Positions 2,716-4,141 of a stretch of 5,378 nt of DNA are shown one piece after another. Position 1 is the first letter of the stretch. Each line of letters opens with the position of its first letter. The notes under the pieces were generated by a model. That model had not been told where the DNA came from and searched no databases. It saw nothing but the letters and a program-made list of their open reading frames with translations. A program made the position numbers and the translations under genes. Origin of the DNA: Chloroflexota bacterium (GTDB lineage Bacteria; Chloroflexota; UBA6077); NCBI GenBank assembly GCA_021788565.1, contig JAJYKO010000466.1, positions 1 through 5,378 on the forward strand. Reading direction: 5' to 3'.

Positions 2716-2744
2716 TTGACAGCAGGTCTGCTTCATGATATCTA
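2716..2744 (+). promoter_or_regulatory. Sigma-70/SigA-type promoter of the arsR-methyltransferase operon
   Basis: A perfect -35 hexamer TTGACA (2716-2721) is followed after 17 bases by TATCTA (2739-2744), a reasonable -10 box. Transcription should start near 2751 and give a leader of about 35 bases before the GTG at 2787. This is the best promoter in the window and argues that the genes behind it are expressed. Confidence 0.7.
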
Positions 2745-2760
2745 TGTTGCTACATATATA
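2739..2760. promoter_or_regulatory. Palindromic operator, probable ArsR binding site
   Basis: The inverted repeat TATGT-TGCT-ACATA (2743-2756) extends outward, after one mismatch (C2742/T2757), with TAT/ATA to 2739 and 2760, so 8 of 9 pairs match. AT-rich imperfect palindromes over the core promoter are the usual operators of ArsR/SmtB repressors. This one covers the -10 box and the expected start site of the operon encoding an ArsR-family protein, so autorepression relieved by the inducer is the natural inference. Confidence 0.7.
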
Positions 2761-2786: not shown

Positions 2787-3161
2787 GTGGATTCTTCGAT
2801 AGCGGCACTGGCGGAAATCTTCAAGACCCTCGCCGAACCCACGCGTCTCCAAATTGTGCTGGCCCTCACTCCCGATTGAAAGTGGGTCAATCTCCTCGTC
2901 GAGGAGACCGGCTTTGCGCAGCCCCTGGTCTCTCACCACCTGAGGGTCCTGCGGGACCATGGCCTTGTTCGGGCCGAAAGGCGCGGTGCCTTCACCTACT
3001 ATTGACTGGCTGACGAGGCGGTCTGGAAGACCGTCGACGCGTGCAGGGAGTTGGCGGCCTCTCTGAGTGAGGATGGGGCACATGTTCGCCGGTATGGACC
3101 TCGCCGACAAAGTGGCCTTCATGCAGACGATGATGGGAGTCTGCATCCCCAGGATCACTGA
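2787..3161 (+). CDS. ArsR/SmtB-family regulator with two in-frame TGA codons (candidate selenoprotein)
   Basis: Starts at GTG 2787 behind GGAGGA and runs 124 codons to TGA 3159-3161 if the TGAs at 2877 (codon 31) and 3003 (codon 73) are read as amino acids. The rest is a textbook ArsR winged helix: FKTLAEPTRLQIVLAL (about 12-27), recognition region Q45-P-L-V-S-H-H-L-R-V-L-R-D (to 57), wing to F69-T-Y-Y, then L74-A-D and a final helix with C86. Residue 31 falls two positions before the first Cys of the E. coli ArsR metal site (ELCVCDLC); residue 73 replaces the common Arg in YYRLAD. No normal Cys ligands remain near position 31. Each TGA has a SECIS-like hairpin behind it, so selenocysteine is the preferred reading; the protein would be a cytoplasmic autorepressor sensing a soft metal or metalloid. 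The alternative is a pseudogene with two nonsense mutations. The last 25-30 residues are uncertain because the next ORF overlaps. Confidence 0.75.
2880..2909 (+). promoter_or_regulatory. Candidate bacterial SECIS element 1 (after TGA 2877-2879)
   Basis: A perfect 7-bp stem, TCTCCTC (2891-2897) with GAGGAGA (2901-2907), closes a GTC loop (2898-2900). Eighteen bases separate the TGA from the loop, and the first loop base is G. An alternative fold adds outer GGTC/GACC pairing (2885-2888 with 2906-2909) and a bulge. This agrees with the bacterial SECIS model as I recall it: loop 16-37 bases from UGA, G in the first two loop positions. Confidence 0.7.
3006..3035 (+). promoter_or_regulatory. Candidate bacterial SECIS element 2 (after TGA 3003-3005)
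   Basis: An 8-bp stem, GGCGGTCT (3017-3024) with AGACCGTC (3028-3035, one G-U pair), closes a GGA loop (3025-3027). Nineteen bases separate the TGA from the loop, and both of the first two loop bases are G. Distance and loop match element 1 almost exactly. Confidence 0.7.
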
Positions 3162-3267
3162 GGGGCTGGGTTCCTCCGAGCGGGAGAGGTTGCCCGAGGG
3201 TCTCCTCGGCAGGATGGCTGAAGAGATCAAGTCCTTGGTCCAGACAGTTCGAGAGGAGCAAGACTGA
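3082..3267 (+). CDS. Small Met-rich helical protein between regulator and methyltransferase
   Basis: Encodes 61 aa from ATG 3082 (M-F-A-G-M-D-L-A-D-K). Other possible starts in frame are GTG 3067, ATG 3073 and ATG 3094; none has a strong ribosome binding site, so translation may be coupled to the overlapping arsR. The protein looks real: amphipathic and probably all-helical, with a Met-rich F-M-Q-T-M-M-G-V-C-I-P segment and a final charged helix ending R-E-E-Q-D. One Cys amid Met residues would suit soft-metal contact, but I do not recognise a named family. Its stop is 16 bases before the methyltransferase ATG. It overlaps the predicted end of arsR (to 3161) in the +1 frame. An alternative is that it is a C-terminal extension of the regulator reached by frameshifting, or split off by a sequence error. 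Confidence 0.55.
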   Translation: MFAGMDLADKVAFMQTMMGVCIPRITEGLGSSERERLPEGLLGRMAEEIKSLVQTVREEQD

Positions 3268-3272
3268 CGGTT

Positions 3273-3276
3273 GGAG
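3273..3276 (+). promoter_or_regulatory. Ribosome binding site deciding the methyltransferase start
   Basis: GGAG at 3273-3276 lies 7 bases before ATG 3284. It favours this start, upstream of the in-frame TGA at 3350, over the internal ATG at 3554, which has no ribosome binding site. Confidence 0.6.
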
Positions 3277-3283
3277 AAGAGTC

Positions 3284-4141
3284 ATGAATAAAGAGACCGA
3301 CCTCAGCGAAGAGGCAATGCCAACGGGGGCTGTGTGCTCCATATCGGGCTGAGCCAGACCTGCCGCTCAGGATGAGCGGAAGCAACTAGATATCCTTTCA
3401 GGAACCCATACTCTCGCCAGCAAGCCCTCGCCGAGGGATGAGCGAGACCAGAAGCGACAGTGGTCGGGTGATTCAGATGAACCGGGCGTCGATAGAGAAG
3501 CCCTGGACCGCCAACAGGACCATTGGGGCAATACGTTCGCCCGGCAACTCGAGATGTTTGGCACCCAGCCCAGCGATCCCGCACTGGCGGCGGTCGGCCT
3601 CTTCCAGGGCCATGGGACGCTGGATGTCCTCGAACTCGGCGCGGGGCAGGGCAGGGATACCCTTTTCTTCGCACAGCACGGCCTAAGGGTCCGGGCGCTG
3701 GACTACGCAGAAGAGGCGGTCGAGACGATCACGATCAAGGCATGCGCCGTCGGGCTGTCAGAACTCGTCTGCTCTTCCCGCGCCGACGTGCGGGAGCCCT
3801 TGCCCTTCCCCGATGAGAGCTTCGATGCCTGCTACTCTCACATGCTCTTCTGCATGGCGCTGACGACCCCCGAGCTCGAAGGGCTGTCGAAGGAGGTGCG
3901 CCGGGTTCTGCGTCCGGGAGGGCTCTGTGTCTTCACCGTCCGCACGACGGACGACGCCCATTACGGGGCAGGCATAGACCGGGACGATGACATGTTCGAG
4001 GTCGGCGGCTTCATCGTCCACTTTTTCGGCCGCTCGCTAGTGGAGCATCTGACCACCGGCTACGAGCTGCTAGACCTGACGGAGTTCGAGGAGGGGGACC
4101 TGCCGCGCCGGCTGTTCCGGGTCACCATGAGGAAGGTCTGA
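3284..4141 (+). CDS. Class I SAM-dependent methyltransferase with N-terminal in-frame TGA (candidate selenoprotein)
   Basis: Read from ATG 3284 with TGA 3350-3352 as codon 23, the frame gives 285 aa ending at TGA 4139. The only start after the TGA is ATG 3554 (codon 91); it lacks a ribosome binding site and would cut off the D-H-W-G-N-T-F segment preceding the fold. SAM-binding motif I is E117-L-G-A-G-Q-G123 and the acidic residue after beta-2 is D140. P-F-P-D-E-S-F-D-A precedes S-H-M-L-F-C-M-A-L, and R-V-L-R-P-G-G-L is the usual post-motif III turn. The N-terminus carries C18-S-I-S-G-U23, a Cys-x4-Sec pair ahead of a charged linker of about 45 residues. That pair could bind a metal(loid) or serve as a redox pair. 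With an ArsR gene in the same operon, methylation of arsenic, selenium, tellurium, mercury or a similar element is a reasonable inference; the substrate is not shown by sequence. A non-recoded 195-aa protein from 3554 is the fallback. Confidence 0.75.
3353..3379 (+). promoter_or_regulatory. Candidate bacterial SECIS element 3 (after TGA 3350-3352)
   Basis: A perfect 6-bp GC-rich stem, CCGCTC (3363-3368) with GAGCGG (3374-3379), closes the loop AGGAT (3369-3373). Sixteen bases separate the TGA from the loop, and G is the second loop base. The loop starts AGG, as I recall the E. coli fdhF SECIS loop doing. A weaker CCTG/CAGG pairing (3359-3362 with 3368-3371) competes. Confidence 0.7.

Follow-up and report, generated by a model that had tools for sequence, protein, structure and literature searches.

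An ArsR-family regulator with UGA codons at both positions of a conserved cysteine pair, most likely decoded as selenocysteine

A 5,378-nucleotide stretch of DNA from a Chloroflexota bacterium (contig JAJYKO010000466.1 of assembly GCA_021788565.1), referred to here in its whole length as the window, carries a gene for an ArsR-family repressor whose frame contains two TGA codons that most likely specify selenocysteine (Sec). Downstream of a gene trio ending at 2397, the ArsR-like frame opens with a GTG at 2787 and is followed by a small open reading frame (ORF; 3073–3267) and by the frame of an S-adenosylmethionine (SAM)-dependent methyltransferase ending at 4141. The TGAs at 2877–2879 and 3003–3005 are codons 31 and 73 of one frame starting from this GTG, and a further TGA at 3350–3352 corresponds to residue 23 of the methyltransferase frame; an initial annotation, made from the letters of the sequence alone, had pointed out all three, and their positions and frames are confirmed. 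When its TGAs are translated as Sec, the ArsR frame matches PF01022 with 39.4 bits (cut-off 22) and NF033788 with 76.6 bits (cut-off 55), and its residues beyond about codon 95 overlap the next ORF. The HTH_5 and HTH_metalloreg matches above cut-off and the ArsR fold of the structural model place the protein in the ArsR/SmtB family.

Both in-frame UGA codons align with cysteines of homologous proteins. A first homology search with the ArsR protein gave 277 matches, the best 120 of which were listed; 27 of these were placed by motif and 93 were left unclassified. Among the 27, Cys31 goes with an end exactly before codon 73 in 18 and with Cys73 in five; P0124, whose sequence starts after codon 31, carries Cys73, and the other three show neither. 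A second search, which used the part after codon 31 as the query and overlaps with the first list, returned 82 proteins (68 placed, 14 unclassified). Here Cys31 is combined with an end before codon 73 in 16 placed proteins and with Cys73 in five, one is again P0124, and the placed proteins without Cys31 never show a cysteine or an end at codon 73 (46/46); of those left unclassified, P0258 on visual inspection combines Cys31 with an end before codon 73. Cys31 is accordingly paired with Cys73 or with an end before codon 73 in 23 of the 24 subfamily proteins from the first search and in 21 of the 22 from the second, the exception both times being P0124, and the Cys73 versions (P0121, P0122, P0123, P0243–P0245) run full length. 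Judged by these alignments, codons 31 and 73 behave as a pair. A longest contig of 5,328 bases is listed for both P0124 and the methyltransferase P0003, so the two are probably located on one contig, and P0124 may have a TGA at its codon 31.

The DNA of relatives was read directly by an ArsR-alignment scan of one genome per species (84,980 species), which yielded 341 confirmed loci, the best 80 of which were kept. Codons 31 and 73 are Cys and TGA at 17 of these 80 loci, Cys and Cys at two (L004, L018) and other residues at 61, and neither TAA nor TAG occurs at codon 73 in any of the 80. As far as they are labelled, the 17 Cys/TGA loci belong to Actinomycetota, Chloroflexota, Bacillota and Armatimonadota, except for one that sits on a 4.3-kb contig from a Pseudomonadota bin. 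Of 400 genomes searched from the phylum of genome G009, 277 matched at an E value of 1e-12, mostly with ordinary ArsRs; the top three loci (L081–L083) were read at codons 31 and 73, adding L082 (Cys/TGA) and L083 (TGA at both codons). TGA73 has thus been verified in the DNA of 19 copies besides that of the window (17 of the best 80 loci, L082 and L083), and UGA recurs at the same place in other species; for TGA31, DNA verification outside the window is confined to L083, with P0124 as a presumed further case. What the initial annotation had named as refuting is not seen in the homologues, which have a Cys or a TGA at these two codons and not random sense codons, TAA or TAG. Four matches at 1e-21 among 396 Actinomycetota genomes all lay in genomes already found, and in the order of genome G055 (13 genomes) the G055 copy was the sole match at 1e-19. 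A phylogenetic tree groups the window, P0124 and L083 (support 95/87); under parsimony the Cys31/TGA73 label changes seven times, but only one change is required by branches with good support, and repeated exchange of Sec and Cys is therefore not claimed. L083 (1456–2400, in the Chloroflexota genome G055) is itself a remnant of the same arsR–methyltransferase locus: its arsR match starts near residue 16, a piece of the methyltransferase lies after it in a different frame, and both TGAs are kept.

Each TGA of the window is followed by a hairpin that resembles a bacterial selenocysteine insertion sequence (SECIS). The loops begin at base +19 (TGA31), +20 (TGA73) and +18 (TGA 3350) after the codon, near the distances of 18, 19 and 16 first reported. 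The stems of 7 bp with loop GTC (TGA31) and of 8 bp with loop GGA and one G–T pair (TGA73) are as originally described, whereas the third, CCGCTCA/TGAGCGG, has 7 bp and loop GGA rather than 6 bp and AGGAT. Under a score that considers loops beginning 15–22 bases after the codon and has a threshold of 6, the three reach 9.0, 9.5 and 9.5, respectively; because 1.06% of 6,600 random positions of arsR loci score at least 9, each hairpin is unusual yet not decisive alone, and it is conservation that decides. Scores of at least 6 follow codon 73 in 16 of the 20 TGA73 copies, in neither of the two Cys73 copies and in two of 61 ordinary ArsRs (random positions, 7.8%), and they follow codon 31 in both TGA copies and in one of 20 Cys copies. 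The TGA73 hairpin aligns without gaps in 19 copies (L082, included in the hairpin scores, stands outside this alignment), and 89.5% of the cells of its 8-bp stem (+12 to +30) are paired, compared with at most 55.3% when the partner is slid by 1–3 columns. The alignment has 12 double-changed cells where shuffles average 3.1, and a covariation score of 0.350 compared with 0.228, neither value being reached in 500 shuffles, with the caveat that related rows may exceed shuffles in such a test. RNAalifold recovers the same stem unprompted. Overall, a conserved hairpin resembling bacterial SECIS elements lies directly 3′ of the UGA, at codon 31 as judged from two copies.

The pattern of substitutions points to translation beyond codon 73. 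Between the window and L083, 38 of 57 synonymous sites differ over 75 codons (17–91), compared with 26 of 162 nonsynonymous ones. For the part beyond codon 73, the sum over six pairs of copies (L002 being used twice) gives differences per synonymous site (pS) of 0.29 and per nonsynonymous site (pN) of 0.12, and 0.35 and 0.13 once the hairpin codons are removed. Since substitutions are mostly silent after codon 73, as they are before it, translation past this codon is likely.

Most genomes with Cys/TGA copies also encode the machinery for Sec insertion. In the 17 genomes concerned, selB is above cut-off in 15, tRNA-Sec scores at least 67 bits in 13, and selA or selB is found in 16, the search for selA having covered G010, G012, G014 and G016 only. 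As for the two Cys/Cys genomes, selB and tRNA-Sec are both present in G004, and G018 shows none of selA, selB and tRNA-Sec above cut-off. By a neighbouring gene of the window (77% identity over 214 residues) the nearest genome is G267, from the order of G055; G267 has selA and selB and no strong tRNA-Sec match; across the 13 genomes of this order, selA is present in 12, selB in 11 and tRNA-Sec in 10. On account of this match and of L083, the window likely belongs to the same order. In G055, tRNA-Sec is present and selA and selB are absent from the assembly; given the tRNA-Sec, an incomplete assembly is as likely an explanation as lost use of Sec.

The initial annotation had counted three Sec codons, of which the two in arsR are well supported and the third, TGA 3350, is not. 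The methyltransferase had 4,444 matches, and none of the best 120, which were listed, covers the TGA: the alignments begin at residue 39 or later in all of them and at residue 52 or later in 119. The third-position GC content of 3353–3434 is 0.56 in the methyltransferase frame and 0.63 and 0.54 in the other two, compared with 0.84 in the gene body. Because the listed homologues miss residue 23 and the coding bias is absent, TGA 3350 is not counted as Sec, in spite of its good hairpin. The description of the interrupted genes as otherwise intact was also too strong. No in-frame ATG, GTG or TTG occurs between TGA 3350 and 3554 of the methyltransferase, whose closest homologues start near 3437; the locus may be worn, the start unusual or the assembly in error. 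The arsR frame in turn extends 51 residues past codon 73 and into the next ORF; of the 17 Cys31/TGA73 relatives, 16 have 23–39 residues there and L014 has 55.

Sec at both of the arsR codons is well supported by the alignment of Cys with TGA, the recurrence of TGA73, the covarying hairpin, the mostly silent substitutions and the machinery in most relatives tested. We consider it highly probable, on this comparative evidence, that the window encodes an ArsR regulator in which UGA occupies the positions of a conserved cysteine pair, both most likely read as Sec; the protein would then be a selenol-based sensor, predicted to repress its own operon. With less assurance, we lean towards a first family of Sec-containing transcription factors, spread over Actinomycetota, Chloroflexota, Bacillota and Armatimonadota, in which selenium would serve sensing rather than catalysis, the window representing the extreme form with a Sec–Sec (diselenide) switch. 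Several observations weigh against the reading as Sec. The case for Sec rests on DNA comparison, and the machinery is seen in the genomes of relatives; among these, a strong tRNA-Sec match is absent from four of the 17 Cys/TGA genomes, and G010 (L010, the 4.3-kb contig) has TGA73 with neither selA nor selB above cut-off. As selB and tRNA-Sec also occur in five of seven genomes with ordinary ArsRs, the machinery provides consistency, not proof. Four of the 20 TGA73 hairpins score below 6, and the Cys31 copy L004 scores 7.0 after codon 31. Two further measures of covariation are less distinct, with four pairs showing a double change against 2.2 (39 of 500 shuffles) and ten further pair types against 8.4 (65 of 500). 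L083, the only other double-TGA copy verified by DNA, is decayed and lies in an assembly that has tRNA-Sec and lacks selA and selB; the operon of the window itself shows wear, in the long arsR tail and in a methyltransferase that has no recognisable start; and we infer both the inducer and the contact between the two Sec residues.

In one alternative, the selenoprotein subfamily is genuine and the window copy is decaying, makes no working repressor and retains its TGAs as ancestral Sec codons. The run of arsR into a shortened next ORF, the missing methyltransferase start where homologues begin and the clear decay of the related L083 all fit; however, the first 95 codons contain no TAA, TAG or frame break, both arsR hairpins are strong, and differences from L083 over codons 17–91 are concentrated at synonymous sites, and on balance we regard decay as unlikely, though with a real chance of being correct. 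A different possibility is that TGA73 is a true stop of a short, 72-residue ArsR without the last helix and TGA31 a nonsense mutation. Gene callers did end 18 of the 27 placed proteins there, but the Cys73 versions are full length, the codons beyond 73 show the excess of pS over pN given above, and the codon is TGA and never TAA or TAG, with a covarying hairpin directly after it, leaving this explanation little chance. The operon wear, and the frequency with which hairpins scoring at least 6 arise at random positions, could also be taken to indicate nonsense mutations in a dead arsR gene accompanied by chance hairpins in GC-rich DNA; both TGAs nevertheless fall on Cys columns, purifying selection is apparent, and because TGA73 recurs in the 19 other DNA-verified copies this explanation is very unlikely. 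TGA is in frame in several ORFs, as it would be if it were read as a sense codon throughout the genome, and such global reassignment is refuted by the ordinary TGA stops of the ferredoxin ORF (1729–1731, shortly ahead of the following ATG, at 1735) and the methyltransferase (4139–4141).

Table 1. Features of the arsR operon and its surroundings in the window
Feature	Position	Strand	Basis or remark
TTGACA, possible −35 box of the arsR promoter	2716–2721	+	Weak: good −10 box missing
Operator-like inverted repeat ATATCTA-N6-TACATAT, 6/7 pairs	2738–2757	+	Repeat form found upstream of relatives
ArsR-family repressor gene with two in-frame TGA (predicted Sec) codons	2787–3161	+	PF01022 and NF033788 above cut-off; translation
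TGA codon 31, predicted selenocysteine	2877–2879	+	Conserved Cys31 column; TGA also in L083
SECIS-like hairpin TCTCCTC-GTC-GAGGAGA, loop at +19	2891–2907	+	Kept in L083 (score 6.5); after Cys31 in 1/20 copies
TGA codon 73, predicted selenocysteine	3003–3005	+	Conserved Cys73/TGA73 column
SECIS-like hairpin GGCGGTCT-GGA-AGACCGTC, loop at +20	3017–3035	+	Conserved with double changes
ORF for a small helical protein	3073–3267	+	ORF list; relatives beside arsR
Third TGA with hairpin CCGCTCA-GGA-TGAGCGG	3350–3379	+	Sec reading not supported
SAM methyltransferase (MduS-like), region with homology	3437–4141	+	NF045649, 261.3 bits (cut-off 380); homology from 3437

The genes around arsR in relatives give the operon a context. 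A related methyltransferase follows arsR in L001, L002, L003 and L004, as in the window, and other methyltransferases adjoin it in L009 and L010. A DUF2284-type gene with an in-frame TGA comes after the methyltransferase in L001–L003; read through its TGA, the L002 copy forms a full DUF2284 domain, and the L001 copy runs into another gene past the TGA. L002 and L003 also contain a thioredoxin-like gene whose frame includes a TGA; in L002 it scores 39.7 bits against the DF selenoprotein model, below the cut-off of 70. Beside the Sec-ArsR genes of L005, L006 and L007, a DUF5714-CMD gene (from 5781, 5351 and 3034 onward, respectively) has a TGA within a GCxP-U-xxYC motif and probably encodes a further selenoprotein. 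The concept of a selenoprotein operon is strengthened by relatives, whose arsR genes stand beside other probable selenoprotein genes (DUF2284, DF-like, CMD domain). From the families of these neighbours, the operons may handle metalloids or methylmetalloids. At L009:6009–6980, a methyltransferase frame near a Sec-ArsR gene is broken by one TGA (QTLL-TGA-ILPDV), which may represent Sec, a nonsense mutation or an error.

Profile scans of ORF 3073–3267 and its Met-rich relatives found no Pfam or NCBIfam family. Longer Met-rich relatives come after arsR in L001, L002, L003, L009 and L015; such a Met-rich small helical protein adjoins arsR in the window and at L001:5320–5565 and L002:6007, the window version being without the N-terminal half of its relatives. 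Further upstream, the trio of membrane protein, ferredoxin and membrane protein (570–2397) recurs in identical order in G267 (L115); among 400 genomes from the phylum of G267, 42 have homologues of its last ORF (1735–2397) at 1e-30. Repeated GTAGGAGCCGGTTTGTGCGCCC-like units, direct and inverted, lie between genes at 240–360. Scans of the window gave no Rfam match at the gathering threshold and no tRNA.

An ATATnnn-N6-nnnATAT repeat precedes 10 of 19 copies and is perfect in five. The imperfect repeat of the window is weak by itself, since 42 of 300 shuffles reach it. Such a repeat fits autoregulation. A promoter scan of the window returned no site by its rule, although TTGACA is present, and the intact promoter of the initial annotation is not confirmed. 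An AlphaFold model with Cys in place of Sec (predicted local distance difference test, 93.6) has a short strand (32–33) ahead of α3 and a wing strand (69–74); residue 31 is predicted to precede the short strand at the start of α3 and residue 73 to lie in the wing strand. The best Foldseek matches among those listed are SmtB and CzrA structures, with template modelling scores of 0.8–0.9.

These features suggest how the regulator could operate. ArsR would repress its own operon until the Sec pair is oxidised or binds a metalloid. Sec31 and Sec73 (Cys31 and Sec73 in most relatives) may form a diselenide or selenylsulfide, or may jointly bind a thiophilic metalloid; either event would shift α3 against the wing, a lever comparable to that of RexT, and the shifted α3 would free the ATAT…ATAT operator. 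The derepressed operon would then methylate or otherwise handle the inducer.

If correct, Sec at the sensor site of a repressor would mean that selenium is used for signalling. The regulator would also be tied to selenium supply, because without selenium translation would stop at codon 31 or 73 and the operon would be derepressed. A group of ArsRs annotated at 72 residues may then be misread selenoprotein genes, and the signals to which selenoprotein gene clusters with methyltransferases respond could be approached directly.

Comparison with known systems sets the window protein apart in its two predicted Sec residues. It resembles the ArsR/SmtB metalloregulators (NF033788, PF01022; SmtB, CzrA) in profile matches above cut-off and in its modelled fold, and differs in the predicted Sec pair; CzrA has residues other than Cys at both positions of the profile alignment. 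TsoR (NF045707), an NCBI-named regulator in a family of selenoprotein-linked genes, is the second-best NCBIfam model for the window and the best for L001, but by profile score neither the window (71.6 bits) nor L001 (86.7 bits) attains its cut-off of 115. For the methyltransferase, the best model is the double selenoprotein MduS (NF045649), matched over profile positions 6–214 of 338 and below cut-off, the window protein being without the C-terminal part. The BigR model NF040642 gives 41.5 bits for the window ArsR, short of its cut-off of 155, and we know of no Sec in the sulfur-sensing ArsRs of the BigR/SqrR type. As described in the sections of PMC12423496 drawn on here, these likewise use two conserved cysteines as a switch in an ArsR fold, with a spacing of 66 residues (50 and 116) in contrast to 42 in the window protein. 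According to the corresponding sections of PMC8960804, the cyanobacterial redox-sensing ArsR RexT has its redox site on α3, loses wing-strand contacts upon oxidation and leaves the DNA; it uses the adjacent Cys40 and Cys41 on α3, whereas the window pair consists of residues 31 and 73, with Sec. NCBIfam release 20, scanned with four ArsR copies, returned no model named as a Sec-containing ArsR, and a literature search on Sec or selenoproteins together with ArsR, SmtB, helix-turn-helix or transcription factor found no such report among the papers listed. A 2026 inventory of prokaryotic selenoproteins comprises 119 families or subfamilies; in the sections consulted no entry is an ArsR and the sole one called regulatory is FmdB (PMC13188914), Haft and Tolstoy 2025 (mSystems) and Haft and Gwadz 2023 (J Bacteriol) lying outside the scope of this comparison. 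Most of the bacterial selenoproteins in these sections are redox enzymes or handle metals or metalloids, and the window ArsR shares with known ones a UGA at a Cys position and a hairpin just 3′ of it (PMC13188914).

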